64,000 bases of DNA. Source: Eunapius fragilis. Lineage: Eukaryota; Porifera; Demospongiae; Spongillida; Spongillidae. The stretch lies in assembly GCA_963681505.1 (NCBI GenBank), contig OY811971.1:22826962-22890961 (forward strand). Reading direction: 5' to 3'. The position numbers and the translations under genes are program-made. The notes under the pieces were generated by a model. That model made no database searches. It saw only the letters and a program-made list of their open reading frames with translations, and was not told the DNA's origin. Shown in pieces: positions 1,691 through 60,279 of the stretch; the stretch's first letter is position 1; every line of letters starts with the position of its first letter.

Positions 1691-4579
1691 GTTGATATGG
1701 TCCCCTAAGCCTTAAATCCCACTTCAACCCTCACAGAAAAATGAACCCGATGACAAAAGATATTATTTTATCATTTATCATCTTTCTTGTTATAACTGTC
1801 CAATATCACGCATCTACTGCCATCACTCACCTTGCCATCCGCAAGTAGCACTAGGCGATTGAACATGTGGAATATCTCTAGCCTTGGTTGGTGAATAGTT
1901 AGGATGACTGTTCTTTTCGAATCAGCCAGTCTGTTGAGGTGTGTCAGCAGTTCACGCGATGACGTGGCATCCAGTCCTGAGGTGGGCTCATCCAAGAATA
2001 GCACACTTGGAAGTTTAAGTAGCTGTAGGGCTATTACAAGTCGCCTTTTCTATTAAATACATTGTTAAAGTAAACATGTTCCATAGTCAGGCATACACCA
2101 AAGGCTATTTGCTTAATAGTCATACTTAAACGAGTACAGCCGTGACTACATACCTGGCCTCCACTCAGTCCTGCACCAGTGGCACCTCCTACAACTGTAT
2201 CAGCAAGCTGTTGCAACTCACTCTGAGGTGGTGTGAGAAGTGAACAAAGTTTATCATTTCCCCCATAAAAAAGTAAACCAACATCAATACAAAAATGAGG
2301 TGGGAACAGAAATCAAAAAATAAACATACCACTGCCAAAACTTGTTCAATTCGTTGGAATTTGTCCTCAATTGAAAAAACATTTGGTAGTTTGACCTGGG
2401 CAGCCAAGGTGAGGTTCTCCCTCACTGTCAGCTCCTCATAGTAGGGTGTGGCCAACTGGAGGACGTAGCCAGTATTGGCAGTGTACCATGCCCTGACTTG
2501 GTGCACCGGTTGCCCGTTGACAAAGATATGACCCTACATGTACATTGCACACACAGCATATAGTTAGCTTTAACATATGTGCTATGCACAACACATATAG
2601 TGATTGCATTTTGTGACAAATATTCTTTCCTCTTCCACCCTATTTACTCCATTCAACATGGAAACTCATATTGTTGCTTACTATGCCATTTGCCTTCAAA
2701 CGCATGTCTCATATATCTCAGCCAACACCTCATACTAAATACAATACTACAAATTGGATGGAGCATTCACCACATACCTCCACATTCCCAGTACGCCTTC
2801 CAGTTAAAAGATCAAGAAGTGTTGTTTTTCCACAACCTTAAATACAGCGATTACATTGGAAATGGCAGTCAAGTATACATCTTGCAGTGCTTGCACAGAC
2901 ATACACACACATACCTGATGGTCCCATGATAGCACATAAGTCTCCTGGGTTGAAGTAGATGGAAACACCTTTCAAGATCTCTTTGGTGGTGTAATAATGT
3001 TTTTTATTTGATGGTGTCTGTCGGCTTTTGCGCTGCATTGTACGGAATAGAAAGAAATTTATTGTGGAACATTTGGGAATAAAATTAATGCTGACTATTG
3101 TGCTCTTTTTCTTGGCAATGTGTGCCAGATATTCATGGATAGAGTTGAATGTTGCTGGATCTGAGAAATAGAATTAGCTGATCTCTTAATAGCCGAGTAT
3201 AAAATGCACTAACCAGAACCAAGATCCGTAGTGTTATCTACATGCCACTGGTGATGCAATGCAGTTGCAATATGCCCTTATGCGTCTCAGACTAATTCTG
3301 GCTAAATCATCACGGGTCAAAACTTATTATACAGAGTTCTCTCCCCTCATACGGGTATGCTCTGCACCTCACGACTGTGTTGGTAATGTGTCAGAACATG
3401 AGGCTAGTGTCTCTTATCATCCTAAGTCCTGCACAATATCTAGCGTACCATGTAGCTATTCTAACATATTTCACCAACAATCTCCTCTAAGCCACTTACC
3501 AGTTAGAAGTGGAGCACTATCTGTGTCATCACGGTTCTCGAGCCTCTTCAGGACAAGTGGTAAAGAGTCATCTTTTTTCTCGTCTTTGACTTGGGTGGTT
3601 CTCACAGTGACAGAATAGTGGAGGTCCAGACATGACACTGAAACACCTGCTTCATCAGCACAGAGGGGAAACTGTGTTGTGGAATTAATGAGATAGCATG
3701 AATTATATACTTTCCGTTCCGAAAAATTCTTTATCAATGTTTGTCACATGAACCACTATAGGGCAAGTTTCAAACTCGAGTTCTACCTCCAAATCCTTTT
3801 CGTCCATTTGCTGCTTCAAATGTGCCAGGTAACCCTTCTGCTTCTGATTCAAATTTAGCAACCACAACCAGAAGACTCCCTTGGCCAGCAGGCAGCTGAG
3901 GGCAATGACCACAACAATCGTCAGCAGCACGATCTTGACATGTGCACTCCAAATGTTTGATGGGGGAGAGCCCAGAATTATCCTGTCCGGACACATGGTG
4001 CTGCAGTGAGGCCCAGAGCAGTTGTCCCTGATAGCCACAACCGAACTGTAGCGATCGGGGTACCACTGGCCGAGGGCATCACGAATGGTAGTCTTATTGG
4101 CTCCCGCCTGCATTGTAATCCATGCGTATGGTTCCATGAATTGACTGTTTCAAGAGGAGCCGGGGTCACATGTAATATTTAAATCACAATTGTTCATTAC
4201 ATACATGCAATTCAGCGTTCTTGGGAATCACGATAGGCAAGTACCGTATATATAGAGCTCCTCAAACCAGATGTAGTCCATGCAGCTTAATTTACTCTTT
4301 AGATACATAACGGTATCACCATGATACGCATCAAACGGGAAATAGAACTGAGGTTTATTTAAAATACAGTAGTTTAAAAACACCATGCAGGTTTAAAATA
4401 AAATAAAAAAACACTAGGCAATTAATGTAACCATGTTGCTTTAAGATATCCAAATTTGTTCCCCAGCATTGTGTGCCACTACCCAAAACATTTACTGTTT
4501 TACAAGAAATTATGTGTAGACTTTTTTCTAGGGCATGTGTTGTTTGTGTGCTAAATATAGGACTATGACATTTTCCCTT

Positions 4580-4679
4580 CTGATAAGACCTTGTTTCCTT
4601 GCTTTTTACACCACCAATGTCATAATCAAATCCTATATCCCACCAACTTTCTCGTAGAGAATGTTTTTATTTACTTGTA
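4580..4679 (-). repeat. Half copy of a foldback MITE
   Basis: About 100 bp in intron 1 of copy A match one arm of the foldback elements at 34570-34838 and 55149-55432 (GCTTTTTACACCACCA ... TAGAGAATG ... ACTTGT). The other arm is missing. It is absent from the corresponding intron of copy B, so it arrived after the duplication or was lost from B. Just right of it the run GCTAGCTAGCTAGC sits in a small imperfect palindrome (4720-4745). A ~45-bp direct repeat (about 4469-4515 and 4768-4812, GTGCCACTACCCAAAACATT) flanks the whole insertion. Confidence 0.6.
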
Positions 4680-5337
4680 TATATTGCTCTAAGCTAGCTA
4701 AGTAACCCACACTAGTTATATAGCAGGCTAGCTAGCTAGCTAGGCTAACGTACTAGTTAATTAATTATGTGTGCCACTACCCAAAACATTTACTGTTTTG
4801 CAGGAAATTAATGCTATATATTCAGTCTTTCTAACATTCTGTTTACCAAACTGTGACCGCTACGTGCAAGCGGACCACATTTTCCAATGCATGACAAACC
4901 TGAAAGCCCCAAATGATACGGACACATCCACAGCCTGGCTACCAAGCAGGTTCCCCTCCCCCCACAGTGTGGAGGTCACCAGGTAGATGTGTTGGAAGCA
5001 CTCGGTCACGTAATAGCTCAATTTCTTTACACCATCGCTGATCACCGACAGGCTGCCGTTCATGGCTCCACCGTACTCAGAAACAGTCTGTAAAAACCTT
5101 ACGGCCAGTCCTGCGCCAGCATTCTTTGACCTTCCAACTTCTGTTGTATTCAGACCAATAAGAGAATTAGCCAATAGGTACACGTCGTACAAACCAAATA
5201 TGACAAACGTCGGGACGTCTTTTAATGGGTAGTACTGTGGAGTACTTAGCATACAGAAGGCAGAGAAGCAGCAAGGAGAGCCGCGGGACATGTCCCCGCA
5301 CGTGACATTTGTCGTATCTGTCGCCTTCATGATACTG

Positions 5338-5545
5338 CACTGTTAAAAAAAAGGTGTTACCGCAACACACTTCGGGGTGTTCGTATGGATATTTAAAAAT
5401 GACACCCCCTGGGGTGTAGTGGTAACCGCTTAGGAGTGTTACAGCTAACACCTCTGAAGTGTAGCCAGTACACTCTATTGGGTGTTGACAGAGGTAACAA
5501 TATCTCGTATATTTACCGTAAATTGATGATCCCAACATAAATTGA
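5338..5545. repeat. Subterminal AACACC-type repeats, left end
   Basis: At least eight copies of GGTGTT/AACACC or close variants (GGGGTGTT, GACACCCC, GAGTGTT, TAACACC, GGGTGTT) lie in the first 200 bp, in both orientations. A matching cluster occupies 10440-10679 at the other end. Such arrays are known transposase-binding sites in CACTA elements; binding here is inferred. Confidence 0.55.
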
Positions 5546-5820
5546 TATTAATAAACTATACAACAGGTCCAATTGATTTTAATAAAATGATGATAAATAA
5601 ATACAACATGAAGAACACATATATATACGAAAGTTAGAAGTCTTTGCACGCCATGACGCTCGAGCAGGTTATTTCTCTGGTTCAGACACTAAACAAAATA
5701 AGAGAACACATAAAGGTCAGGTTACAGTACAAGACATGTCTGACCTTAAATCTTGGCCTTCGCGAAGGAGTATACTGTAACAACGCCGTCGACCGCACTG
5801 ACAGCGAAATACATTGTTCT

Positions 5821-6022
5821 GGCTTACCTCGATAGCTTGGTAGGGCGTGTCCTTTTAGTCTTGCGAACTTTGTAAAATAAAATAGGGCGTATTTGAACGC
5901 GTGAAAGGGAACTGACGTGTATGGCTTACCCCGATAGCTTGGTAAGGCATGTCCTTTTAGTCTTGCGGACTTTGTAAAATAAAATAGGGCGTATTTGAAC
6001 GCGTGAAAAGGAACTTACATGT
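5821..6022. repeat. Two-copy 102-bp tandem repeat
   Basis: Units 5821-5922 and 5923-6022 both begin GGCTTACC.CGATAGCTTGG and contain AATAGGGCGTATTTGAACGC. They differ at only a handful of positions. The repeat lies inside the CACTA-like insertion and is non-coding as far as I can see. Confidence 0.8.
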
Positions 6023-6362
6023 ACCTCGATTCCTCACGCGTATAGTGAGGTAGCGTGCGCTGTAGTAGCTGGGTAGCACGGTAGTAGAATTTTCCTTAGC
6101 GTATATAGCCGAGAAGTGGATTTGTACAGGCATTCCGAACTGCTGTACTAGTATCCCTACCAAGAACAACTCGATGCACTCTCTTCAAGGCACCCAACTG
6201 TTGTTAATTGAACGACGCATCGCTAAATGTTTGAAGAAAACAACTGGGTTTAAACCAAGCAAAACATCACCATGCCTATTACCTTTCACGAACACTTTAT
6301 ATTTTAAAAAGGTCACGGAGAACGTGCTATTAAGGGTCACGCATGCGCAATGAAAAATACCC

Positions 6363-6613
6363 TGGGGTCGAGGCAGCGAAAAGGGACCTAGCGCATATTT
6401 TTTCAAGTTTTCAAAATATTTCATATTCAGAGAGACACCTATGTCCTCTACAACTTCTTTCATACACACTGGAAATTAGCCTGTCCATCATGGGGTTACA
6501 GGGTCCCGAATTTTTAATTACGCGTACATTTTTATTACACATGTGGACTTTGATGCTCCTTCCTGGAAATTTTTATAATATGCGCTAGGTCCCTTTTTGC
6601 TGCCTCGACCCCA
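6363..6613. mobile_element. 251-bp MITE with ~37-bp terminal inverted repeats
   Basis: The left end TGGGGTCGAGGCAGCGAAAA and the reverse complement of the right end agree for about 37 bp with one mismatch, running through AGGGACCTAGCGCATATT. The core is AT-rich with no coding potential. I could not identify a clear target-site duplication, so the superfamily is unknown. It is nested inside the larger insertion at 5338-10679. Confidence 0.7.
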
Positions 6614-7443
6614 TTTACTCACTAGAAGTTCAATGTTTTTATCAACATGAACACAAAACATGGATACATATTAATACTGATAAAAAGTTGATCCAATTAT
6701 GACATCATGCTGGTGCCAAGCTTAAGCATGCATGATATGCCAAATGTGGCACCATTTCAGATATTCATACAATATGGCACATGTGGAATCAAAATGCTAC
6801 CCTGCTATTGACTGACCCATCACATGATCTTCATGGCAACCAGTCTGGTCCAAGTCACATGATCCCCTCTATGGCAACCTTTGGTAATGGTCCCCACAGC
6901 CATTTCCTCCTCACTCGCTAAAACCTTGTCTGCATCAGGAGTCTTCTCAGTTGTCTCTTCCTTTACAAACATGTCTTCCTTACCCTCAGTTCATCCTACA
7001 TGTATACCTCAGACTACTTGCCTCTCACTATAGTTACTTAATTGCCTCTCCCTACTTGTCAACACGCTATGTAGTGCTACACATCGATAATAATTATATT
7101 CTCATCCATAAAAATAAACAATAGATGGAGCAACAGAAAACTAAGGGCAACCCAGATGCGCTTTTATAAGAGTTACAAGGAAGAGCAGATAAAGAAGTGG
7201 CTAGCAACTACGCACTAACGACCAACATATGCAATCAATCTGTGTACATACTTTCACATTACCACGACTCAAAAAGCTTTTGGCAGTGTGGTATAACCTC
7301 AAAGTTTGATACACATGTATTTGTTCAGCAGTTACAATAGTAACATGAATCAAAATGACAAAAAGGAATAAGCACTTAGTCAGAGTACAGAAAAAAATGA
7401 TTAGTTACTATAGTCAATCCAGGCATACAGCAAAAATGATCAG

Positions 7444-7722
7444 TTACAATAGTCGATCCAGTGTTGACTTGACACAAACAGCTAGGGTAGGTATTTTCTG
7501 ACTATCCTGGATGTCTAGAATATAGAATTGTCCAAATGTAAGGAATGCTAGACTGGATTTTGGATACTCTATATTAAAGGCAAAGTATGCTCCATACAGA
7601 GACTTGATAGCCTCCCAGCAAGTTGGCTTCTCTACCAGGATCTCTTGTTCGGTAACAACAAAGATTTGTGGGGCAGTAGAGTCATGATTCACTATAAGTA
7701 TGTAGGGCCAGTTTTGTCCCAC
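7444..7722 (-). pseudogene. Transposon-associated protein fragment (fish/invertebrate 'SAMD3-like' type tail)
   Basis: This 92-codon ORF reads PYILIVN, then FVVTEQEIL, then a YGAYFAFNIEYPKSSLAF-like block and ends in stop. The layout (a short 'PYIL..' segment, a helix with 'YFAFNI.YPK', then 'LTFGQFYIL') resembles the C-terminus of transposon-borne proteins often labelled SAM-domain-containing-3-like. That comparison is from memory. A second minus-strand coding piece at 8340-8576 (WRELVAIVGTDNEE, SKKEAESRE) may be an upstream exon of the same gene, with the CA repeat in the intron. Both lie within the CACTA-like element. Confidence 0.35.
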
Positions 7723-7955
7723 AGTTTGTACAGCCTGTTCCAGTTGGGTACAAATCTGTCAGGAAAATGTTTTTTGACACCTACAGATGTTTGCTCACTC
7801 CCCTCCTCCTCCACCTCTAAGCCCCTCAGTATTTAGAAAACTCACAGACATTCAGAGCACAACGTTGATACTTTTGCTCGCATATTTCTTGGGCGTAAGT
7901 AAGGCATTGAGTAGCTCCAAAGAGTGCAGTTCGCTCAGTGTATTTGCTGTCCAAA

Positions 7956-7956
<1 letters not shown>

Positions 7957-8011
<55 letters not shown>

Positions 8012-8056
8012 TACACACACACATGCACACACACATGTGCGCACACACACACAAAT
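7957..8056. repeat. CA microsatellite
   Basis: A run of about 25 CA units is followed by interrupted CACATG/CACACA units. It is inside the insertion at 5338-10679 and produces spurious His/Thr or Cys/Val ORFs on both strands. Confidence 0.95.
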
Positions 8057-8339
8057 TTGAACATGTGTAAACAAACAGAAACAGTCACTACTTGTAAATC
8101 ACAAGTGTTTATGTGCATGCATTGTTATTTATACTGAAAAGTTTAGCTGGCATTTAGAAAAATTCTAAATCATTTTATCAAGACCCTATATAATTTTAAA
8201 GATGGTGTTTATTATATGCCAATATACCAGAGCTATCTAACTTTAATAAAATGAAATGTGTCAAAGCCATAATATCTTTTCGTATCTGTACATAACTACA
8301 ACTACCCCTTTTCACAGTCATTATTCACAGCAAAGATTA

Positions 8340-8576
8340 TCTGTATAAACATGTAAAAATAGCCTCTTTACAATTACCTTCCTCATTTGTGCAATTCTGT
8401 ATCTCACTGAGCTGAGCTTTAAGTATAGCAGAAATATTCTCCCGACTTTCAGCTTCCTTCTTTGACAGTCTGTACACTTTAGGAATCATCATTTTCCATC
8501 TCTCACTAGCCACTTCCTCATTGTCAGTGCCAACTATAGCCACCAGTTCCCTCCAAAGCTGAAGGGTACAAAACAC
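8340..8576 (-). pseudogene. Possible upstream exon of the transposon-borne gene
   Basis: A charged ORF (WRELVAIVGTDNEEVASERW, then SKKEAESRENISAIL and QNCTNEEG) precedes the fragment at 7444-7722 on the same strand. It is followed on the minus strand by the sequence running into the CA repeat. I do not recognise a domain. Its helical, acidic-basic composition looks coding and not random. No start codon context or splice site was decisive. Confidence 0.3.
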
Positions 8577-9049
8577 TAAATGAAGCTAAAGACTGTCCAT
8601 CATTAATATTTAATGCATGTTCAGAACTCGTTTTGAATGACAAATACATGTATGTGCATGAACATAAAATATTTGTAAATTCATTACTACTATCACCCGG
8701 TCCGCATCTTCCTAATCAGATTGTGAAGGGAGGATCCTCTCCCACCTTTGATTACCATACCCCCCCCCTCCCCATTTTCTTACACCTCCCCAATCCAATT
8801 CTCCTACACTGTACCTCCCTAATCAAAACTATCATCCTCCTCACCCTCCTTCCCCCAGCCTCCTCCCCCTTACACTTCCTGTATCATCCTCACAAGCATC
8901 TCCATCATCCTTATAGTACACGCTCTCTTGTCCTCCCCCTGCTTACACAACAAAACTAGGTAACCCCAATTGAGTTAATGAGACGTGTTTTTCATGAGTG
9001 AAAAAAAAAAAACGATGTCATCGTTATATAAACACATATATTTTTAATT

Positions 9050-9260
9050 GCAGGGCTAAATGGGTCACCTTTGCTGGTCAGAAGTATCAAACTATGTGTA
9101 TTGTTATTCTAGGAGTGGATGAAGACTACCCTATGTTTGGGCAAGTTAAGGAACTGTACATGATTGATACCACAAAACCTATGGCAATTGTGACTGTAAT
9201 GTCAACGCTTGCATTCAACGAGCACTACCATGGCTATACATTGAGTTATTCAACCTCTAC
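9050..9260 (+). pseudogene. C-terminal fragment of a transposon-encoded protein
   Basis: After a run of A residues and an acceptor-like TTTTTAATTGCAG at about 9042-9054, the frame reads AKWVTFAGQKYQ, CIVILGVDEDYPMFGQV and FNEHYHGYTLS. The pattern W-V-x-Y, V-x-DED-x-P-x-FG-x-V and F-x-x-HYHGY is characteristic of the C-terminal segment of proteins carried by several animal DNA transposons, including CACTA-like ones (from memory). The frame runs into the hAT insertion that starts at 9266, which supplies the present stop. Confidence 0.45.
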
Positions 9261-9265
9261 CAGGG

Positions 9266-9839
9266 CAGGGCCGTAGAGAGGGGGGGGTAAGCAGGGTATG
9301 TTACCCCGGGCCTCAGGGTGTAAAGGGGCCTCCGGGTCCAGAAAATATTATTCCTACAATTGGGGGGTTGAAGGAATCATCATCAAATGTGATGCTTCAG
9401 CGGCGGATCCGGAGGGGGGGGGGGGGGGGGGGTAACTCAGTGCACGTGTCTCCCCCCCCCCCCCCCCCCCCCCCTTCCAAATATAAATTCATAACTTTTT
9501 GGGCTGCATTTTATAATAATAGCCGCATGCTTGCGCCACCTATTGATACCCGTACGCATTAACTCTACTAGTGTACTATATCCTGGGCCCCCTGATATGC
9601 GATCATACCCCCCTTCCCCCACTTTTTATATTGGGCTAGAAACCGACAGCACCCACCACCCCCCCCCCCCCCCCGCTTTTCGTATCGGGCCAGAAGCCAA
9701 AAGCACCCCCCTCCCCAGCCACACCCACCATCCGTGCCCCACCCCCCCTATAACCTGGATCCGCGGCTATGCTTGGCATGGGTGAGGGGCCTCATTAACT
9801 TAAATACCCCGGGCCTCCGTGCCGCTCTCAACGGGCCTC
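9266..9839. mobile_element. hAT-like MITE, 574 bp, with 8-bp target duplication
   Basis: The element starts CAGGGCCGTAGAGAGG and ends with the near-inverted ...CTCTCAACGGGCCTC. It is flanked by the exact 8-bp direct repeat TACCAGGG (9258-9265 and 9840-9847). An 8-bp duplication and CAGGGCC-type tips are diagnostic of the hAT superfamily. The interior has no ORF and holds unusually long homopolymers: G runs near 9280 and 9412-9432, and C runs at 9451-9474 and about 9659-9674. It is nested in the CACTA-like insertion. Confidence 0.8.
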
Positions 9840-10439
9840 TACCAGGGTAATATCTCTCAAAACATTGTACAGTCCTTTTCCACTCCATGCTAGAAGATGT
9901 CCAAATGGCGACAGATTGGTGGTAATGAAGCACCATATATCTGGAACAGTTCAAAGTTAAAGCGTACATATACTATCCTGTATGAACTGTATTGACTGTA
10001 ACAGGTGATAGACATGATTTTATTGTGTTGGTACCAGATGATTACTATGCTCCTCCTTGAGCTACATGTGATAACATATGAAAAACTTGTGTCCAACAAT
10101 ATATATATGTTCCCATGTAATTTTACTATTAGGGTGTGGTCTAACTAGAATCCAGATGGAGTTTTAACACTGTGACGTGGTGCGCATACATGAACCACTG
10201 CACGCAAGCCTTCTTAAACACAGCTTTGTTGTATACCGTTATTGCACGTTGTAAAAGCGACGCTAACGTGTACAAACGCACTACCCACACCGACGAACGC
10301 CCGCCAAGGCCAGCGTTTAGTACTGTAAGTCGTGTGCGTGCGTACATACCTTAAAGATAACGTTCGGCTTTAAAGTTCAATCCAACTACGAAGTCTGTCA
10401 CAGCTGCCATAGCATCTTGCCAACCACGCCCTCAATCCG

Positions 10440-10679
10440 TCAAACAAACAAGGCTGGGAACGCGTTCACTGGGGTGTAATGCGGTAAATCAGTGCTATGA
10501 CAACACACCTTTTAAATGTCTTAACACTCCATTATTGGTGGGATACGGTGCTAACACTCTCGCGTAGTCTGCCAACACCCATAGGTGTAAGCTGAACACC
10601 CTAGTGTGTTATCATAGCACCCCATGGGCTGTAACACCCCTCAGACCTAACACCCCTCGGGCCTTTTTTTTTAACAGTG
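10440..10679. repeat. Subterminal AACACC-type repeats, right end
   Basis: About ten copies of AACAC(C/T)/GGTGT motifs lie within 240 bp and end at the CAGTG tip. They mirror the left-end cluster. On the host's minus strand the opposite tip reads TTTTTTTTAACAG just before the resumed exon, which resembles a splice acceptor. Confidence 0.55.
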
Positions 10680-11837
10680 TGAATACTCCATTTTGCGCCA
10701 TACTCTCTCCATCGGCTATGCCTACGAATAGGCTCTTAACGCTGTCCTGGAAGTTAATGAACCACGCCGAGTCGGCAATGACGCTAAGATTAGCTCCTCG
10801 CGTCGAGTTCCTGAGCAACTGCAGAGTCCAATTGGCGTGGTTGATCACACCCACGCCTCCGGCGCTAGATCCGACAAGTGTCAACGTTGAGCTGTTGGTA
10901 AGACCCTCGTTCAGTAACTGGCGAAGAGCACCGCGGTAAATCGTTTGTCCGCGAAACACGAATGGCAACTGATCAGAAGAATTCAGAAAACATTCAGTAA
11001 AATACGATTTCCCGATAGAAGTGCACGAGTCGTAGTCGTTCCCATAGCACCGATCATAGAGGTCCGTGGAAATGTTGCAGCTTACGGAGGGACTGTTGGC
11101 TAGCCAGAGGTCGCTGCTGCAGTATGGTACGACGACCCGTGTGTGGTTGCAAAAGGTTGGGTTATTGTTGCAGTTGTCGTCAAGGATACCCTGCCCTCGG
11201 ACAGAGATGCCTGTTTCAAAATAGCTCGTGTTCACGAACGTGAGTATGGATGTCACCAGCGGGGATACGAAGGAATTCAGAGGTTCATTTAAGGACATCA
11301 CGGTTCTCTGAGCTTCAAACACGTCATAATTCACCAACGGACCTATGGACGGAGTACCGCTTCTTCTGAGCCGCGTCCTGACCGAGGCACTAAAGTATCG
11401 CTTGTTGCAGGTATCTGGTGAGTAGCATCCTCCGCCACTCTCGAGGAATACGATCCAGTGTTCGGGTGAGCGCCCTCGTGCCATGAAGTAGCCGGCAGGA
11501 GTGTGGTCGTTGCATAACGCACTCCTGTCGCTAATGACCTTCCAAATGAGATTTTCTGCATTGGCAGCTCTTAGGAGAATGCCTGTTAAGAGAAGTAGAC
11601 TTCTCATCGCACAGTACCAGAAGTCAGAAACTGTGCTGGTATTATTTGATGCGGTTTTTATTCGAAATGGAAGTTCATTGGAATTTGAAATATACGTGCT
11701 GTCTAACAAAAAAAACGGGCCAAAAAAAATTCTAACGATGCGTGCATGTATACGGGCATGGTAATCTAAATTTAAAATCTCGAGCGCCATATTGCACCTT
11801 CGCAATCTGACGATGATGCGTATTGCTACATCTATAG

Positions 11838-47500: not shown

Positions 47501-48209
47501 TACTAGTGTGGACAGAAATATTTCCACTAAGTATAATGAACTGAAACACTTGAAAGAACTTACCCAAATAAGGGAGGACATGTTTGAGTATTATAGAGCA
47601 ATTGATCGTGGTGACGTTATTGACTGGCCAATTGAATTGTTGCATCCCAGCAAGATTAAAGTTAAAGTTGATGACAGTTTCTACCAGGAGATCACACTAT
47701 TTTGTACCAACTCGTTCAACAATGAAGTACATGCATTTCCAAGAATTGATAAATTTGGAAGGTGCCGGGTAAATGGACAATTATTTTCATCTGATTATAA
47801 TTCAACTGATAGAGGTGCATTGATACAAGCAATGTTTGTAATGAATGACAGCAATGAACTGCACCCTTACTTTGGGATTGTGAGATTCTACTTCCAAATA
47901 TGCATCAAGCATAAAAGTGACACTGGAAACCTCCAAAATGTAACACTGGCTTATGTAACTTGGATGGTGTTTAAGACACCTGAGAAAGATAAATTCTCAA
48001 ACCTATATTTAGTGAGTGATACATTTTATCAACGCGATAAGATCATTAGTCCTCGAAGGTTTATCAGTCGCTGTACCCTGGTACGTGGTGAGAAGAAATC
48101 TTCATATTATGTTGCCAATCTACCAGAGATGAAACTGAACAATGTACTTCAATGTATGAATGTGTGCAGTTATGTTGAACTGTTGTGTATGCAGCATGTA
48201 TATTGTTGA
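44588..48209 (+). CDS. CACTA (tnp2-type) transposase, spliced
   Basis: I chose ATG at 44588 because MPKKNYLHSCDCARCKRRYT followed by STVRRHR is the usual Cys-rich N-terminus of animal CACTA transposases. Small acidic exons follow: about 44852-44981 (DNSGLVLDVDNESGS, ending before GTACATG), 45026-45095 (ENEDDFAGTGLEKF), 45302-45400 (GCVVDTENVSTYAGD, EEEVIEEGEH) and 45518-45575 (CGENDDESVLYSCQRQL). The long last exon (about 45628-48209) is uninterrupted. It contains CICGLISVVLKL, a zinc-like CPNDICNCLYN, then the tnp2 core: NVDWFKPFKRSEYKVAAL, NLPRAERFKERW, GIIPGPTEPKGNINTFLKPL, KADYGCSRC, DPMHTFLLGMAHNE, and YGPPHGYWCFGYERMNGVL. These correspond to Transposase_21 (tnp2) blocks. The protein would catalyse cut-and-paste transposition. 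The gene looks intact; splice borders of the small exons are estimates. Confidence 0.8.
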
Positions 48210-49252: not shown

Positions 49253-50192
49253 CTACGATGGCCTAAGTTCCAAAGACGGGTCTGGACATGCTTCTGACAT
49301 GTGGTCATCATGTTCTCCAGTGCTTGTATGGCCGTCATCATGTAAGTCCATGAAGAGACCACAATCACCAAGGCTCAGTGCTGAGTCATTCGATATGACT
49401 TGATTGGTAGCCCCTATGTCGTCCACAACAGTTGATGCTGCCATGTTCCTTTTGTCAACCAGTGATGTGTTTTCACTGGGTCCAACAAAAGGAGCATCAC
49501 TTCCATGGACATCTGCCAGAGTGATTTGGTTTTGTGCTGAGCTTGTTTCTGCTGACATGGTGTGTGACTGTGGACCATTGGCCGTGCGGTTGACAGCTTG
49601 CACATACCGGCTAACCACATCATGGAATTTGTAGTGCTCATTGGGATGCAGCTGATCTCTAACCTTGCAGGCGGCGTCCTTAAACGTCATGTGAAGTCCA
49701 TCTGATGGATTGTCTACATCAATTACTTGCTTTGTGTTGGCCCTGAGAACAGCCCTGGTGGCGTGCACTCTATTCTCGAGGTTCTTTCTCCTCTCAGAGA
49801 GGCTTAGGTGGACCTCCTGTCCCTGATCCCTTATGTCCATCGCACTCTGGGTGGATCCCCTCATCTGAGGTTTCCACACAAAGTGACCCTCCCCTTCATT
49901 CAGGAATGGGCTGTTGATTTCATTGATCTCTGGCTCACAGGATTTTGTATCCGTCTTCAAGTGATCGAATTCCAAGCCTAACCTTTGCAAGTTCCCCTGT
50001 TTCATATTTTTGCTCATATCTGCAGGCCTTTTATCACTCTGGTTGTTCCTCTGCCACTGTTCATCTATGACTGATGAGCTTCCTGACATATCAATGCTAG
50101 TAGTGATGTGCTGACTTTCGATCACAATAGCACTGTCTTTTTCACATTGATCTGCACTGACATTTTGAATTTTGCTTGAGACCTTCTGATGG
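49253..50192 (-). other. Exon 17 of copy B: long hydrophilic C-terminal tail
   Basis: An open frame of 313 codons with no domain I know, rich in Ser, Asn, Asp, Glu and His. A charged helical stretch (LSLSERRKNLENRVHATRAV) and CKVRDQLHPNEHYKFHDVVS stand out. It ends HDDHMSEACPDPSLELRPS. The acceptor (ATTAAG, after a 65-bp intron) keeps the frame from exon 16. ABCG half-transporters normally end soon after TM6, so this tail is unusual. It could instead be a separate gene starting at ATG 50209, though its close spacing and frame agreement argue for the fusion. Confidence 0.6.
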
Positions 50193-53100
50193 CTTAATAG
50201 CATGTACATTTAACAATGTCATCAGTATAGCCACATGTGCTATATATAAATACATACCTCAATAAATGTGCAATGCGTTTAAAGTTGGAGACAGGGTTAG
50301 AATATCGAATGGAGTTACTCATCGTTGCAAGAAGGAGGTAGAATATCGTAAAGGATAGAAGTACCTGTGGAGTGTTTGTTATTCAAGGGGTAGATGGAAT
50401 TTAGTTTAGAGAAATAGATATTGCTTTATCATCACTTGCCCATTAGAATGCATGTAATAACATTAATCTTACAGTGAGGTGAAGGTAAGGATTGACATCA
50501 TCAAAGTTGAAGTACTTTAGGTAGTACTGTGGTGAGGATGGAAAGCATTCAATGATAGATCCTAAACAACCTGTCTGGAAGTCATTGAGGAGAAGGCTTG
50601 CAGAGGCTGAAAACCCATAGTAGTTAGGATTGATATAGAAAAGCCATCGATAGCTAGTCAAGGGTAATGTGGAATGTGAGGGCACAGAGTAGGGTACATA
50701 TCATTTCTCGCTTACACCATAGGCATGGACTCTCTGGGAACAAAAAATCCACTGGTGAAACCTGCCACACTGGATATGATCGGGGATAGACGGAATGCGA
50801 TGTTTGGAAATCCACAGATGACAAATATCAGCAGGGCCACCCATGTTTGGTTAAGAGCAAGGTTGACGAGCAGCACTTGAACAAAGACCTTGATGCTGTA
50901 CGAATCCCTGTTCACCAACTGAGCAGAAAAGAAAGGTGCCTTTTATTCAAAAAGTTAGTATCTTTTAATACAATCACACTAACCAATAGATATAGAACTG
51001 AAGCACAAATGATGACAGGGAAAAATCCAAGGGTAACACCCCTGATGAAACCTTGAATGACAATATCCCAAGACCTCCCTGCACCATCCACACGTTCATA
51101 ACCAGTCACCTCCAGGGCCCTCTGGTAGTAGATGTAGAGGGCTGGGAACATGAAGAGAGCACTGGCCACTGAGTAGACACAGAACCCTGACATCACCAGG
51201 AGTGGGTTGTAGGACTGGTAGTATACAGTACCTGTTTTTGTGGTAAAGAAAAGGGCTATGAACATAGTGGTAGTGGTTAGACATGTAGTTCACCTCATGT
51301 TGCTAAGGGAAAATTTTAGCCATCATTCAATTATTTCGACATAATATTAAAAAGCCATTGTATGAAGAGAATAAAATTGAATTTCGTTGAATAAAGCAGT
51401 ACCACGTATTCATTACTAGAATAATCGATTGTTCAGATTGGCAGCATTTGTTTATTTTACCAAATTTTTTTAAAAATCAGTTCCCTTTATTTCTTTTGTC
51501 ATTTTTATCTGGTAACACAAGGAATTCTCACCAACTACCACACAAAATACGGACAAATACATTCATGAACCACTGCACAGCATGAGGTTATGAATGCAGG
51601 ATGGGACTGGCATTAAGTTCAATTAGTGAACCTGTGCAGTTACATGTTTCCAGTAACATAACATAAATATTCTATGATGCTTCAGAAAGGCTATTTAAAA
51701 CTACTGTAGCAACTGTCAGATAATTCACACCTAATAATATCCCATAGAAAAAGAAAATAACTGGTAAGTATAGCATTTGGCCAACTGATGCCCTCAGAGC
51801 TCCTCTTGCCTCCAAGGCAGCCAACCTGTTCAGTGTTCCACCATGATGGTCATCCAACCTATGAGAGCCATAAGATGGAAGTATTGAAGTATACAGTCTA
51901 CCTAGGATTATCTAATATAACAAGTAATACCTTTTTGCCCCATATACCGCGTACTGAACTTTCTGGGAAAATGTGCCAAGTATGTCACGGGACATACTCT
52001 GATAGCAAGCTGTCTCAATGGCAGACTGTACAAGCTTTGGATCAGGGCTCTTCTCATAATAGTCGGTTATGATTGCACGCAGCCTATGGTTACCAGCCAT
52101 GTCCATAATAACATCTGCAAAGATTGAATGTACAAATATATAAGTAGTTTAACACTTAGTAGTTTAAAGAATAATGTTTCCACAAAAAATGTGTCTTCTA
52201 AGTTAGTACAAGCTAATCAAGACTCATGTAGAAATTTATACATCAATGCTATAATACATGCATGGGATTTAGACATGCCCACCTGCTGGGTTTTCATTTG
52301 CAAGCTGTGGGGCACTTTTCCAGTACTTTGTTTGTAAAGCTTTAATGAAGACCTCATAAGCCTTGTCAGGGACCCCATGGTATGCAACCTAAGTAGTTTT
52401 GGAATGGTAAAGTTGCCTTTATTGTTGTTGTTATTATTGGATGTTGACAATAATTTATTGAATTTCAAATACATAGGAGCAGTATTAATATGACCATAAA
52501 ACACTGAGGAGCTACATGTAGACCAGCAGTTCAAATCTAAACAAACAGCATTAATGAAGTTTAACTTGAAACTATTCTTCTACTCATGATGGCCCTAGCA
52601 ACCGACCTCACTGTAGAGGTATTTAACCGCCCATAAATCTTAGCTTTTGGGCAGTGCTGGAAGTTTGAGAAAATGCAGGCTAGTCTTACAAGAGCATTCT
52701 GGGCCTCTTTGCCCCAGCTCCTATAACTCTCTACTGAGGAACACATAGCCACCCTAGCTCCTGACACCTTGGGTCATTGGAGGAGTGCTTCCTGCACCAT
52801 TAGAATTACAAGTATTATGCTAAGTGGCAGGATTGAGTGACTGTGATCTTTCCCAAGCATCAACTAGCACATCATCCAGACGGGATTGTTATAGACTATT
52901 GTAAGGCCCCCTTTACCAATCTCTGCCCATACAGACAGGTGATTATGCTGACAGAACTCTGAAAAGAGGTTATACAGGTGATTGTGTATGATAACAACAT
53001 CACCACCATGTCTGTAAGACACTGCGTGATGTCTAAGAGGATCCAAAGTGATATCGGGGCAGAATGGCATATTGATTGTATTGAGGAGTTCATATCTAGC

Positions 53101-56100
53101 CACCACATCGCTGCAATCTGGAAATCAGCAGGATCAAAATGCACATGATGCCAAAAAAGTAAAATCGCTTTATTTCTCTCCTATCTCCCAGCATGTCTTG
53201 TGTAAGACGATGTTGGATGTCATCTTTTTCAGTCAATCTTAATGACTTCCTTCCCTGTCAGTAAGGCTCAAATTATTTCTGCCTTTGCTCCTCATACTGC
53301 TTGGTTGGCTTTTGGTTGTCCCTTCAGAGATTGGAGAGAACAAAACTGACTCGACTGTTATGACATCAGTAGAGGGGACACATGATCATTGAACTCTAAA
53401 ATGGCACTTATTAAATGGTGACTGTTAGCGTGAAGAACACGGAGATGAGATGAACATAGCACATGAGTAGTAAGTGAAAGCCATGCCCTCCAAAGATGAG
53501 GCTAATTTGTGCTTGCCGGCAGTGATCATCCAGAATGTCAACTGCTATGCATATAGAGTTCCTCCTCATCAAAGAACTGCAGGGACTCAAATGAAAGTCT
53601 AGGAGGAGTTATTCAAGCTAGATGAAGCAATTTCAATTATTGCCATAGATGCTAAGAAGAGAAGGTAGGCTGCAACATGAAGATCTACTAAAGCCGAGAG
53701 CAAAACATTTGCCTTGGAACATGACATGGGCGCAATGCAAATAGTCACCTATTGGTACCGCAAGAATCTCTAAATAGATGACTTCATAGCAGGTGGAACA
53801 AATGGTTGCCTTGGGGACTGAAAACTTCACACTAAGACAAATTGATGAAAAGTCCCATGTAATAGGATATTATTATTATTGGAAGGACAAATGTGTACAA
53901 AACAGACACATAATAATAATATTAAATCCATCGGCTTGTCCTCTCCCAAACCTTCCATCTTGGTGGACATTTACAGTGAGCTGAACATCACCTTGGTCAG
54001 GTCTATTGCCAGAGCCATCTTGGCAAGGGAGTTCCTGCCCTCGTGACTTAACTTTATTTGCGGGTGTATGATTATGTAATTATTATTATCGGAACCTACG
54101 CGAGTAGGTTCCATATAGGAATCCTGCAGTATCATGAATGTCATTAAAAAAACGTCACTCTCATCTAGCGGGACAGCCAAGAGTCGGGTCACGTCGTTTT
54201 TAGTGGCAATCGAGCAATATCAAAAAGGAGAACAGTTCTGCGTTATATCTGTGTCATAAGACGGTGTACTTTTAGAGAACAAACATACTCGTCCCCATCG
54301 TCCGTACCCAGTCCCACCTAAACTTTCTCCTCCGTCGTCTTCTTCTTCTTCTTATTCTTCTTCTTCTTCCTTCGGGATAGCATAACTCACGACAGGAACG
54401 TTTGTAGAGCACGCCATGTGTACCAATCGCTTCAGGATGTGTCCGCATGTTATCTTCGGGTATCTGTTAGACGCCTAACCGATCGGGCAATTAGCTGAAG
54501 CTAGTTGTCTACAAATAGCACATTACATCAGCTATCGCAATGTTCATGACGCACCAGTATAATATAACCAGCGTTATCAAATTCGATGGTTTTACCATAC
54601 AATCTCAAGGACAAGTCTGATTCCACTCGAGCATCTAAAATCCAGATACTGCCAGATCTGCGTATGTCAAGCGCGGTACCGAAAGGAACAACAAAACGAC
54701 CACCCAAAGGTACGTTACGGCATCGATAAATGTTGGATCGATAAATGATGAGCATGCGTGGTACATCGCTAAAATGGAACGAATAGTTTAGTTGCAGCGG
54801 TAGATACTGCGTCTCTCTGTTTTATAGTAATATGCGCTGTGTGTATAACGCCAAAGTTGCTTACGTCAATTTGGTCATGTATTGTGGTGCATGGTTTATC
54901 TGATTATACCGTGAGATCAGTTTACTTAGAGTACATTTATCCTATGTATTACATGGCTTCGCTTTTAACCGTTATCAATCCTTTGCTCCTCAATGGAGAT
55001 AGTCTGGGGACTAGTGTAATATTTGGCAACAGAATTGCGGATTCTAAAATAAACCTGTCATGATCGCGCAAGTTGACGTTTATGCTACCTGATTCTATGC
55101 GTTTCAAGAACTAAATACAATACTAAATCCACCAGAAAAATTTAGGAAACAAGTAATAAAAACATTCTCTACACGAGAAGGTTGGTGGTATATAGGAATC
55201 AAAGGTGATGATGGTGTAAAAAGCAAGGGAACAAGACTTCTGATTGAAAAGGAAAAATGAAATAGACCTATATTAGCACGTACATTTAAATATGACAACA
55301 TGCTGCTAATATAGGTCTATTTCATTTTTTCTTTTCAATCAGAAGTCTTGTTCCCGTGCTTTTTACACCACCATCACCTTTGATTCCTATATACCACCAA
55401 CCTTCTCGTGTAGAGAATGTTTTCATTACTTGTAATAAATATTAACGGTGTCGAAAAAAAATCTAATGAATCTACAGTTCTACTTACAATTACATAAAAT
55501 CACCACTGACATTCCACTAACCTACCCTTGGTCAGCCTCCCTTCCCATGATGGCCTTTGCTACAGACCTCACCAATGACATATTGAGGCGGCCATAAATT
55601 TCATTGAGCATTTTGTGTTTGGGGATGGCCTGGCTGATGGAAACCAGAGAGACAAGCCGGAAATAAAAAACTCTGAGCCTCCTTCCCCCAATTGCCATAC
55701 ATTTCTACAGCTAACGATACACACATCCTGGCACCTGGTGTGTCGTTGGCAGCATGCTTTCGACTTTATCAGCATAAGCTGCTGCCCCCACAGATGTACC
55801 AGCATTATGAGAGTAAGAGGAAAAGTGACTGTAACACTGGCTGCTGGCTTATATGGTCCCCTAGCTAAGCCTTATCTCACTTTGACCCTCACAGAAAGTT
55901 GAGCCAGATGACAAAAGTTGGAAAGATATTATTGTATCATTTATCATCTTTCTTGTAATAAATATCACGCATCTACTGCCATCACTGACCTTGCCATCCG
56001 CAAGAAGCACTAGGCGATTGAACATGTGGAATATCTCCAGCCTAGGTTGGTGGATAGTTAGGACGACTGTTCTTTTTGAAGCAGCCAGTCTGTTGAGGTG

Positions 56101-59100
56101 TGCCAGCAGTTCATACGATGAAGTGGCATCCAGTCCTGAGGTGGGCTCATCCAAGAATAGCACACTTGGAAGTTTAAGTAGCTGTAGGGCTATTACCAGT
56201 CGCCTTTTCTATGAAATACATTGTTAAAGTAAATATGTTCCATAGTCAGGCATACACCAAAGGCTATGAGCATAATAGTCTTATATAAACGAGTACAGCC
56301 ATGACTATATACCTGCCCTCCACTCAGTCCTGCACCAGTGGCACCTCCTACAACTGTATCAGCAAATTGTCGCAGCTCACTCTGAGGTGGTGTGAGAAGT
56401 GAACAAATTTTATCATGTTACCCATAAAACCAACATCAATACAAAAATGAGGTGGGAACAGAAATCACAAAGTTAACATACCACTGCCAAAACTTGTTCA
56501 ATTCGTTGGAACTTGTCCAAAACGTTTGGTAGTTTGACCTGGGCAGCCAAGGTGAGGTTCTCTCTCACTGTCAGCTCCTCATAGTAGGGTGTGGCCAACT
56601 GGAGGACGTAGCCAGTATTTGCAGTGTACCATGCCCTGACTTGGTGCACCGGTTGCCCGTTGACAAAGATATGACCCTACATGTACATTGCAAACACAGC
56701 ATGCAGTTAGTTTTAACATACATATATGTGCTATGCACACCACATATAGTGGTTTGCTGGTTATTCTTTCCTCTTCCCCCATATTTACTCCATTCAAGAG
56801 GAATGGAAACTTGTATTGTTTGTCACTATGCCGTTTGCCTTCAATGGCATGTATCATATAATATCTCAGCCAACACCTCATACTAAGTAAAATACTACAA
56901 ATTGGATGGAGCATTCACCACAAACCTCCACATTCCCAGTACGCCTTCCAGTTAAAAGATCAAGAAGTGTTGTTTTTCCACAACCTTGAATGCAGCATTT
57001 ACATTGGAAATGGCAGTCAAGTATACATCTTGCAGTGCTTGCACAGACATACACACACATACCTGATGGTCCCATGATAGCACATAAGTCTCCTGGGTTG
57101 AAGTAGATGGAAACACCTTTCAAGATCTCTTTGGTGGTGTAATAATGTTTTTTATTTGATGGTGTCTGTTGGCTTTTGCGCTGCATTGTACAGAATAGAA
57201 AGAAATTTATTGTGGAACATTTGGGAATAAAATTAATACTAACTATTGTGCTCTTTTTCTTGGCAACGTGTGCCAGATATTCATGGATGGAGTTGAATGT
57301 TGCTGGAGTGGTTGCCACTTCTGAAGAATAGAATTAGCTTCAACACAATTGGTCTCTTAAGAGCTGAGTATAAAATGCACAAACCTAGACCAAGATTCTT
57401 AGCATTACCTACATGCCACTGCTGATACAATACTGGTTTATTCCAGTTGCAATATGCCCTTATTCGTCTCAGACTAAATCTGGCTAAATCCTAATGGGTC
57501 AGAACTTAATTTACTGTGTTCTCTCCCCTGTTTTTGTAATGTGTCAGAACATAAGGCTATTGTCTCTCATCATCCTATGTCCTGCACTATATCTAGTGCA
57601 CCATGTAGCTATTCTAACATATTTCACCAACAATGTCCTCTACGCCATTTACCAGTTAGTAGTGGAGCACTATCTGTGTCATCACGGTTCTCGAGCCTCT
57701 TCAGGACAAGAGGTAAAGAGTCATCTTTTTTCTCGTCTTTGACTTGGGTGGTTCTCACAGTGACAGAATAGTGGAGGTCCAGACATGACACTGAAACACC
57801 TGCTTCATCAGCACAGAGGGGAAACTGTTGTGGAAAGAGATAGCATGACCTACATTCTGTTACAAAAAGACATGCTACATGTTTATCATGACAATGTTTG
57901 CACATCACCAATAGCAGACAATTGCATGTCTCTTCCTACTAACATATCCCATATTAAATTCATTTTAAAATTCATTTCAACCACTATAGGACAAAGGCCA
58001 AATTCGAGTACTGTTTACACATACGCGCAATGTTCTACCTCTAAATCCTTTTCGTCCATTTGCTGCTTCAAACGTGCCAGGTAACCCTTCTGGTTCATAT
58101 TCAAATTTAGCAACCATAACCAGAAGACTCCCTTGGCCAGCAGGCAGCTGAGGGCAATGACCACAACAATCGTCAGCAGCACGATCTTGACATGTGCACT
58201 CCAAATGTTTGATGGGGGAGAGCCCAGAATTATCCTGTCCGGACACATGGTGCTGCAGTGAGGCCCAGAGCAGTTGTCCCTGATAGCCACAACCGAACTG
58301 TAGCGATCGGGGTACCACTGGCCGAGGGCATCACGAATGGTAGTCTTATTGGCTCCCGCCTGCATTGTACTCCATGCGTCTGGTTCCATGAATTGACTGT
58401 TTCAAGAGGAGCCGAGGTCACACGATTCATATGTATAAACATAATATAGTTAAATCACAACTGTTCATTATATACAAACTAATTCAGCGTTCGCGGGATC
58501 ACGATAAGACAAGTTGACAAGTATGGGGCACCTCAATATGATTTATTCCAATTGGCAGCATTACTCCTTAGATATTTTTTACAGTACATACACCATGATA
58601 CGGAACCGGAACTGAGGTATAAGGAAGGATGACGAAGGGGAATGGGGAAGGCATGAGGAGGGGAAGGGTTAAGGAGGTTTATTTCAAAAATAGTTTGGAA
58701 ACACCAGGTTAAAAAAAAATCCCACTAGGCAATGAATGTAACCATGCTGATTTACGATATCCAAATTGTTCCCCAACAGTGTGCCACTACCAATCATAAT
58801 GCAATGTTTTGCAAGAAATGTTATATTCTAAGAAATATTTACTCTTAACAATCTGTTTACCAACTTGTGACCGCTACACGTGCAAGCGGACCACATTTTC
58901 CAATGCATGACAAACCTGAAAGCCCCAAATGATGTGGACACATCCACAGCCTGGCTACCAAGCAGGTTTCCCTCCCCCCACAGTGTGGAGGTCACCAGGT
59001 AGATATGTTGGAAGCACTCGGTCACGTAATAGCTCAATTTCTCTACACCATCGCTAATCATCGACAGGCTGCCGTTCATGGCTCCACCGTACTCAGAAAC

Positions 59101-60279
59101 AGTCTGTAAAAACCTTACGGCTAGTCCTGCGCCAGCATTCTTTGACCTTCCAACTTCTGTTGTACTCAGACCAATAAGAGAATTAGCCAATAGATACACG
59201 TCATACAAACCAAATATGACAAACGTCGGGACGTCTTTTAATGGGTAGTACTGTGGAGTGCTTAGCATACAGAAGGCAGAGAAGCAGCAAGGAGAGCCGC
59301 GGGACATGTCCCCGCACGTGACATTTGTCGTATCTGTCGCCTTCATGATACTGAATACTCCATTTTGCGCCGTACTCTCTCCATCGGCTATGCCTACGAA
59401 TAGGCTCTTAACGCTGTCCTGGAAGTTAATGAACCACGCCGAGTCGGCAATGACGCTAAGATTAGCTCCTCGCGTCGAGTTCCTGAGCAAATGCAGAGTC
59501 CAATTGGCGTGGTTGATCACACCCACGCCTCCGGCGCTAGATCCGACAAGTGTCAACGTTGAGCTGTTGGTAAGACCCTCGTTCAGTAACTGGCGAAGAG
59601 CACCGCGGTAAATCGTTTGTCCGCGAAACACGAATGGCAACTGATCAGAAGAATTCAGAAAACATTCAGTAAAATACGATTTCCCGATAGAAGTGCACGA
59701 GTCGTAGTCGTTCCCATAGCACCGATCATAGAGGTCCGTGGAAATGTTGCAGCTTACGGAGGGACTGTTGGCTAGCCAGAGGTCGCTGCTGCAGTATGGT
59801 ACGACGACCCGTGTGTGGTTGCAAAAGGTTGGGTTAATGTTGCAGTTGTCGTCAAGGATACCCTGCCCTCGGACAGAGATGCCTGTTTTAAAATAGCTCG
59901 TGTTCACGAACGTGAGTATGGATGTCACCAGCGGGGATACGAAGGAATTCAGAGGTTCATTTAAGGACATCACGGTTCTCTGAGCTTCAAACACGTCGTA
60001 ATTCACCAACGGACCTATGGACGGAGAACCGCTTCTTCTGAGCCGCGTCCTGACCGAGGCACTAAAGTACCGCTTGTTGCAGGTATCCGGGGAGTAGCAT
60101 CCTCCGCCACTCTCGAGGAATACGATCCAGTGTTCGGGTGAGCGCCCTCGTGCCATGAAGTAGCCGGCAGGAGTGTGGTCGTTGCATAACGCTCTCCTGT
60201 CGCTAATGACCTTCCAAAATAGATTGTCTGCATTGGCAGCTCTTAGGAGAATGCTTGTTAAGAGAAGTAGACTTCTCAT
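49253..60279 (-). CDS. Fusion gene: Notum/pectin-acetylesterase-like ectodomain + ABCG half-transporter (copy B, complete)
   Basis: Seventeen exons: 60279-58880, 58396-58039, 57824-57653, 57320-57244, 57180-57063, 56984-56926, 56676-56482, 56381-56313, 56208-55990, 52388-52283, 52114-51931, 51858-51731, 51231-50984, 50918-50716, 50653-50473, 50364-50258, 50192-49253. All introns are GT-AG, phases agree at every junction, and the total is 4764 nt, or 1587 residues plus stop. Domain order: signal peptide 1-16; PAE/Notum-like hydrolase to about 520 (S248, D360, H425); TM helix about 536-563; linker; ABC ATPase about 670-890 (Walker A 706-714, LSGGQ 812-816, Walker B ending D836-E837, H-loop H869); ABCG coupling region and six-helix domain to about 1275; hydrophilic tail to 1587. 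The ectodomain would face outside or the lumen, and the ATPase would be cytosolic. The start gives a clean signal peptide. Substrate is unknown. The fusion is predicted from splice logic, not transcripts. Confidence 0.85.
50258..52388 (-). other. Exons 10-16 of copy B: ABCG coupling region and membrane domain
   Basis: Exon 10 ends ENPA and exon 11 starts DVIMDMA, together the ABCG NPAD motif. Exon 12 carries QMLYLPVIFFFYGILLGV (TM1). Exon 13 carries MSGFCVYSVASALFMFPALY, ERVDGAGRSWDIV and FFPVIICASVLYLLV. Exon 14 has FVQVLLVNLALNQTWVALL, IFVICGFPNIAFRLSPI and the SGFFVPRESMPMV segment. Exon 15 has YRWLFYINPNYYGFSASAS and an extracellular Cys-containing loop (TGCLGSIIECFP), and exon 16 the last helix VLLSFTIFYLLLATM. 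These are the ABC2-type (ABCG) landmarks. Donors at exons 14 (GTAAGC) and 15 (GTAAGA) are near consensus. Confidence 0.85.
52430..53240 (-). repeat. RT C-terminal relic in intron 9 of copy B
   Basis: Minus-strand frames carry HHAVSYRHGGDVV, LYNLFSEFCQHNH, then (52767-52561) VESYRSWGKEAQNALVRLA, PKAKIYGRLNTSTVRSVARA and IMSRR. This is the tail of the same RT-associated protein as at 180-1170. It is matched by 1-540 in copy A. It is a partial, broken copy with no RT core. Confidence 0.55.
54090..54400 (-). repeat. ~300-bp dispersed repeat, copy 3 of 3, with TTC microsatellite
   Basis: The reverse complement shares ATCATGAATGTCATTA and CAGGATTCCTATATGG-type phrases with 35190-35240. A (TTC)n tract of about 30 bp lies at 54338-54375. 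It sits in intron 9 of copy B and is absent from the copy A intron. Confidence 0.4.
55149..55432. mobile_element. Foldback MITE, best-preserved copy
   Basis: About 284 bp made almost entirely of two inverted arms of roughly 130 bp: ACAAGTAATAAAAACATTCT at the left and its near-exact inverse at the right, pairing through GGTTGGTGGTATATAGGAAT and AATAGACCTATATTAGCA. The loop is about 25 bp. It is non-coding and lies within intron 9 of copy B. It is absent from the copy A intron. Confidence 0.85.
55500..55860 (-). repeat. Second RT C-terminal relic in intron 9 of copy B
   Basis: Colinear with 1300-1690 in copy A. Decayed minus-strand phrases include CRNVWQLGEGG and SARPSPNTKCSM. It is part of the duplicated intron. 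Confidence 0.45.
55990..57320 (-). other. Exons 4-9 of copy B: ABCG-type ATPase domain
   Basis: Short exons encode KEILKGVSIYFNPGDLCAIM, the Walker A GPSGCGKTT (split between exons 5 and 6), GHIFVNGQPV, the Q-loop region TGYVLQ followed by YYEELTVRENL, the signature GAGLSGGQ with KRRLVIALQLL, Walker B SVLFLDEPTSGLDATSS and the H-loop LTIHQPR, ending LLADGKV. The order and the SGLDATSS D-loop are those of ABCG/White transporters. One NBD is present, so the product would work as a dimer. The join to exon 10 gives LADGKVAYHG, the canonical ABCG sequence, supporting the long intron between them. Confidence 0.92.
58039..58396 (-). other. Exon 2 of copy B: end of hydrolase fold and single transmembrane helix
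   Basis: Residues 468-586. QFMEPDAW, TIRDALGQWYPDR and NCSGPHCSTMC are the usual PAE-family C-terminal block (helix ending ALxxWY, then Cys-rich stretch). They are followed by a short stalk and the helix VKIVLLTIVVVIALSCLLAK with FWLWLL. A basic-acidic segment (LKQQMDEKDLE) follows on the presumed cytosolic side. The exon joins a normal PAE ending directly to a membrane anchor, the physical point of the fusion. Confidence 0.85.
58880..60279 (-). other. Exon 1 of copy B: signal peptide and alpha/beta-hydrolase (PAE/Notum family) domain
   Basis: The ATG at 60279 begins MRSLLLLTSILLRAANA, a typical signal peptide with cleavage near residue 16-17. In-frame sequence continues upstream without a better start. 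Family landmarks: HWIVFLESGGGCYSPDTC (oxyanion region), RVVVPYCSSDLWLA, YRGALRQLL, TLVGSSAGGVGV (nucleophile S248), VIADSAWF, FVIFGLYD (D360) and CFQHIYLV (H425). Cys residues and about ten N-glycosylation sequons fit secretion. Notum removes palmitoleate from Wnt, and plant PAEs deacetylate pectin. The closest substrate cannot be told from sequence alone. The exon ends in phase 2 at the GT after ...WSAC. Confidence 0.88.

Follow-up and report, generated by a model that had tools for sequence, protein, structure and literature searches.

Notum, a palmitoleoyl-protein carboxylesterase of the CE13/pectin acetylesterase (PAE) family, is a free secreted enzyme with a signal peptide, an alpha/beta hydrolase fold, a Ser-Asp-His triad, and the motifs YCSSD.W and, at its C-terminus, DxC..xHC..CP. 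In a 64,000-nucleotide stretch of the genome of the sponge Eunapius fragilis (contig OY811971.1; hereafter, the window), we identified a gene whose product is predicted to share the signal peptide, fold, triad, and motifs of Notum. It is not a free secreted protein, however, as a membrane helix and an ATP-binding cassette (ABC) core follow in the same frame, and it lacks the Trp128 of Notum. This second half is like the ABCG half-transporters (ABCG1, ABCG2, ABCG5/8, and the plant ABCG25/16) in its domain order, its nucleotide-binding motifs, and the top structural matches of a relative, but the protein differs from them by about 620 extra N-terminal residues, which include the hydrolase ectodomain and the added helix, and by a long tail. 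To our knowledge, catalytic ectodomains on ABCG transporters are undescribed. We hold it nearly certain that a PAE-type hydrolase and an ABCG half-transporter are fused here in one polypeptide.

Gene structure and the hydrolase-transporter junction

Running along the minus strand from an ATG at 60279 to a stop at 49253, the gene was rebuilt as 17 exons with GT..AG introns, agreeing phases and one open frame, which confirms the place, exon number and matching phases given in an initial annotation of this DNA. The length of "exactly 1588 codons" reported there had to be revised, as the corrected coding sequence measures 4,728 bases, or 1,576 codons, of which the last is the stop and the others encode 1,575 residues, with the acceptor of exon 13 set to 51231 instead of 51255 based on alignment with the Ephydatia muelleri protein. 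A Pfam scan of the spliced frame, made on our first model (1,583 amino acids, with 8 surplus residues at the start of exon 13), identified PAE (PF03283; E=1.5e-33, 116.8 bits against a cut-off of 26.6, best stretch at residues 212-456), ABC_tran (E=3e-28, residues 677-828), and ABC2_membrane (E=1.8e-9, residues 1014-1195). The in-frame fusion first proposed from splicing logic is supported.

Exon 1 (58916..60279) encodes the signal peptide and most of the hydrolase (residues 1-454/455), as judged from the splice model, Pfam, the triad columns and the fold, and exon 2 (58039..58396) encodes the Cys-rich C-terminal end of the hydrolase (DNC..PHC..CPD) followed by a membrane helix, as indicated by the splice model, hydropathy and a match to the C-terminus of Notum. 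All further exons, also on the minus strand, were placed by the splice model. A cytosolic linker is encoded by exon 3 (57653..57824) and further linker by exon 4 (57244..57320); the ATPase starts in exon 5 (57063..57180), which runs to the GPSG of Walker A, and continues with the remainder of Walker A (CGKTT) in exon 6 (56926..56984). Motifs further support exons 7 (56482..56676; Q-loop region), 8 (56313..56381; LSGGQ signature), and 9 (55990..56208; Walker B, D-loop, and H-loop). The ATPase domain ends, in NPA, with exon 10 (52283..52388), for which a frame terminating in KTQQ was rejected, as the frame YHGVPDKAYEVFIKALQ..NENPA fits ABCG proteins, then Ephydatia. Exon 11 (51931..52114) links to the membrane domain, which is encoded by exon 12 (51731..51858; first helix), exon 13 (50984..51231), exon 14 (50716..50918), exon 15 (50473..50653; the extracellular loop preceding the last helix), and exon 16 (50258..50364; the last helix). 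Exon 17 (49253..50192) carries a tail of about 313 amino acids, supported also by tail comparison, and the stop. No Pfam family was found in this tail at E 0.01, and comparison to the tails of nine relatives (a 10-sequence set) yielded clear matches to two Ephydatia tails (E 4.8e-34 and 6.4e-16), a weak one to P0005 (E 0.0027), and nothing significant for the other six; with clear likeness limited to Ephydatia among the nine, we rejected the idea of the tail as a conserved module.

Hydropathy analysis places a strong hydrophobic helix at about residues 524-542 and more helices from about residue 1002. Twelve of the 19 N-glycosylation sequons, as well as 18 cysteines, fall within the first 523 residues, as expected of an ectodomain. 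The succession of sequons, helix and ATPase supports a predicted topology with the hydrolase outside and the ATPase inside the cell, as had been proposed. In all 22 sequences compared, a hydrophobic helix follows the hydrolase.

Within the window, the junction is drawn from splice signals only, and one could thus argue that two adjacent genes were wrongly joined by our splicing inference. Such a model, which we consider very improbable, is contradicted by three sets of data, and we rejected it. First, P0017 (named by EukProt) is a complete frame that comes from a transcript and encodes 1,778 residues, and several other relatives sit on contigs barely longer than their frame (e.g., 1,464 amino acids on 4,550 bases), pointing to spliced cDNA. 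Second, the junction is contained in a single frame in P0158 and P0187, as well as in the copy on C22 of the same genome, where a single 620-codon open frame starts in the hydrolase and extends past the triad and the membrane helix as far as Walker A, so that the fusion there needs no splicing argument. Third, a genome search with PF03283 returned 20 matches, grouped to nine loci with only the best candidates scored, and at eight of these nine the hydrolase, helix and ABCG parts follow in the same order and strand when the full protein is matched to the DNA around them, the window included. The initial annotation had named separate transcripts for the two halves as the result that would overturn the fusion; for the relatives the outcome is the opposite, with a homologous transcript and intron-free frames crossing the junction.

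Fused relatives and copies

A whole-protein search gave 109 matches, 17 of them with PAE, ABC_tran and ABC2_membrane in one protein and 21 with PAE and at least one of the other two. Named fused relatives come from Ephydatia muelleri, Geodia barretti, Oopsacas minuta, Oscarella lobularis, and the coral Oculina patagonica. The three domains are found in deposits bearing generic names, namely the Geodia "ABC transporter G family member 8", Ephydatia EMCRGX_G026851, Oopsacas LOD99_50, and Oculina ACROYT_G036176 and G036177, whose identity to the window protein in the best local alignment is 38-71%. The statement that no protein of this architecture had been described therefore holds for the literature searched, where no paper on a PAE-ABCG architecture appeared among the matches listed (with subscription journals mostly outside coverage), but not for sequence databases, where such proteins were already deposited. 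In the deposited Ephydatia protein P0001, a long GVVWDGVVWD repeat follows the H-loop at residues of about 890-1010, perhaps a mis-annotated intron.

A profile search added seven further PAE and ABC_tran proteins (P0110-P0116) among 27 matches, and a search with the hydrolase added at least two more, P0158 and P0187, among the best 120 of 417 matches, which included no named Notum. In a tree of 56 ATPase rows, all 17 from fused proteins group on a single branch (support 99/94), with P0017 beside Oscarella, and with the very distant PAE-helix-ABCG proteins P0027 and P0030 inside; ordinary half-transporters of about 650 amino acids were left out by the length limit of the search, hence this tree cannot name the sister group. 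With related fused proteins in several sponge groups and in a stony coral, the fusion is real and old. Of 43 short open reading frames (ORFs) with PAE only, 29 end no more than 2 residues from the exon 1 border (24 in the Arg that results from an AG|G donor), eight stop 3-10 residues on, and six, including the fused P0158 and P0187, run further; some short hydrolase ORFs resemble coral sequences by eye (e.g., P0129 and P0014). Judging from where they end, many of these ORFs look like first exons and not stand-alone genes, the exon 1 border seems to be common to them, and fused genes may be more frequent than current annotation indicates.

In the Eunapius genome, the eight fused loci comprise four in tandem on C1, two on C16, one on C2, and the one on C22. 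The window occupies C1:22826962-22890961. One of the four on C1 is the second copy in the window (1831..11607, minus strand, by alignment), of which exons 1-9 lie inside and exons 10-17 to the left. Its exon 1 is split by an insertion of about 5.3 kb (5338..10679) with inverted-repeat ends CACTGTTAAAAAAAA and TTTTTTTTAACAGTG and, judged from the junctions, a 2-base duplication. We thus rejected this copy as an intact gene; the agreement between two copies on which the fusion had been partly argued backs the exon structure over exons 1-9, but does not provide an intact second gene. Tandem copy C1b aligns over all 17 exons, with GT/AG at each intron and no stop in aligned codons, and in tandem copy C1a exons 4 and 14 are unaligned at their beginnings. 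The ratios of nonsynonymous to synonymous substitution (dN/dS) of the window gene against C1b and C1a, obtained with a rough method from few changes and with gapped codons excluded, were 0.14 and 0.22 for the hydrolase, 0.31 and 0.42 for the ABC part together with the membrane domain, and 0.37 and 0.54 for the tail; against the interrupted copy they were 0.63 for the hydrolase, 0.20 for the ABC part, and 0.50 for the tail. Protein-changing differences between the tandem copies are, by these estimates, fewer than silent ones. The remaining PAE locus (L022 on C15, at about 381-383 kb) gave no fused-protein match in 26 kb at E 1e-3, in a search that is blind to the PAE exons of C15 itself but in which ATPase exons should show; its exon reads YCDGASF in place of the YCSSD.W common to Notum and the fusions. 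No stand-alone Notum-type gene was seen in the genome among the best candidates scored.

Other features surround these copies. Locus L009 (C1:22775206-22776493, plus strand), which adjoins the tandem cluster on the opposite strand, weakly resembles the fused protein (28-31%) in its membrane domain and tail region. Inside the window, a Transposase_21 (tnp2) open frame of 874 codons occupies 45585-48206 on the plus strand (E=1.2e-16). Pieces of RVT_1 reverse transcriptase at 20726-22093 and 40525-41229, and of a phage-integrase-type domain at 19417-20097, all on the minus strand, are by sequence mobile-element remains between the tandem copies.

Possible functions of the fused protein

The kinship of the two halves to Notum and to ABCG proteins, claimed from the start, is supported by our analyses. 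The N-terminal half is assigned to PAE/CE13 (PF03283) by a profile score above the cut-off and by the putative catalytic triad, Ser248, Asp360, and His425, present in all 64 alignment rows. The solved structures matched by its sequence are all Notum (8 of 8 distinct chains), and Notum also tops the comparison of its predicted, Notum-like fold, with 25% identity across 290 structurally aligned residues. As in ABCG proteins, the ATPase is N-terminal to the membrane domain, and Walker A and B, signature and H-loop are present. The fold of this half was seen in a model of the relative P0006, rather than of the window protein (mean predicted local distance difference test score, pLDDT, 78.3; predicted template modeling score, pTM, 0.66), which matched ABCG5, ABCG2, and ABCG1 with target TM-scores of 0.70-0.83 among the half-transporter rows listed. 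By sequence alone, the best solved match of the ABC part is a fungal PDR transporter and not a half-transporter.

In the window protein, the putative catalytic residues of both halves are intact. The explanation we favor overall, to which we would give even chances, is that of a functional gene of a conserved family, pairing a Notum/PAE-type ecto-esterase, which a single helix anchors, with an ABCG half-transporter whose substrate is exported and then cleaved. Two fused chains would dimerize, as a homodimer or as a heterodimer of paralogues; the ABCG half would bring a lipophilic cargo, probably an acyl ester, to the outer face; and the esterase held there would cut ester bonds of this cargo, or of surface lipids or ligands. 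If a membrane-permeable ester were split extracellularly into an acid and an alcohol, its export would in effect run one way only. For this mechanism of dimer export and surface cleavage, our confidence falls slightly short of even. The expansion to eight fused loci would fit the handling of substrates such as defensive metabolites, xenobiotics, or food lipids better than a single fixed role in signaling.

Several observations weigh against this proposal. The Foldseek match to Notum is moderate (query TM-score 0.48-0.55, root-mean-square deviation 4.6-7.3 among the rows listed). The position of Notum Trp128 reads E-S-G-G-G-C in the window protein, with no Trp, and Trp occupies it in none of the 141 motif matches found among 146 hydrolase-type proteins (five had no motif). 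In Notum, according to PMC8172013, the backbone amide of Trp128 is part of the oxyanion hole and its side chain stacks on ligands, and the acyl pocket of the fused proteins therefore probably differs from that of Notum. Furthermore, Oculina P0110 has GSSAGA for GSSAGG and is without LSGGQ and the HQP of the H-loop, so that not every family member is likely to be active alone; its sequence hints at a degenerate partner subunit and at heterodimers as in ABCG5/8. GSSAGA also replaces GSSAGG in the first-exon-like ORF P0203. The export direction is assumed by analogy with animal ABCGs, and each half could act independently, with only the anchor in common.

This last possibility of uncoupled activities, in which the ectodomain acts on esters from the environment (food, xenobiotics), by digesting or sensing them, the ABCG half pumps lipids that have nothing to do with these, and the fusion sets location and stoichiometry only, appears to us unlikely. 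It draws on P0047 (Puccinia) and P0048 (Glomus), which by hydropathy have a hydrophobic N-terminus, an ectodomain without the hydrolase motif, one helix, and then an ABCG core, a layout we take to be that of the fungal Adp1 type and the plant ABCG24/28 type. Tandem expansion, too, suits environmental roles. In the sampled tree, the ATPases of P0047 and P0048 do not join the fused branch but sit on long terminal branches of uncertain position, and the single branch of fused ATPases, together with the helix that follows the hydrolase in all sequences compared, suggests that the combination itself has been kept.

A serious rival, even if we find it quite unlikely, is that of a tethered Notum-like deacylase of lipidated (Wnt-type) signals, where the ABCG half serves mainly as an anchor for the enzyme or to manage lipids nearby, while ligands are stripped of acyl groups at the producing cell. 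That Notum is the only solved relative by sequence and leads the fold comparison speaks in its favor, as do the fused state of eight of nine PAE loci, the divergent motif on C15, and the lack of a visible stand-alone Notum-type gene. The missing Trp128 counts against it, even though the oxyanion-hole role of this residue runs via the backbone amide, and tandem multi-copy expansion is unlike a dosage-sensitive signaling regulator. A fused member also exists in the glass sponge Oopsacas, for which PMC5684314 reports polarity in the absence of Wnt signaling.

Returning to export followed by cleavage, a broader version of it would see an ancient family of one-chain export-and-cut machines, in which an acyl ester brought to the outer leaflet by the ABCG half is hydrolyzed by the tethered Notum-type site right next to it and so cannot return, and fusions that replaced stand-alone Notum in this sponge, so that any deacylation of lipidated signals would fall to a transporter; this we regard as doubtful but tenable. 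If P0027 and P0030 prove to be non-animal, the fusion would predate animals. "Notum" matches in sponge and coral surveys may be first exons of transporters. The family occurs in sponges and one coral, animals for which lipophilic metabolites and the early evolution of Wnt control are open questions, and, as ABCG substrates are hard to find, a fixed pair of enzyme and pump is a direct clue to substrate chemistry.
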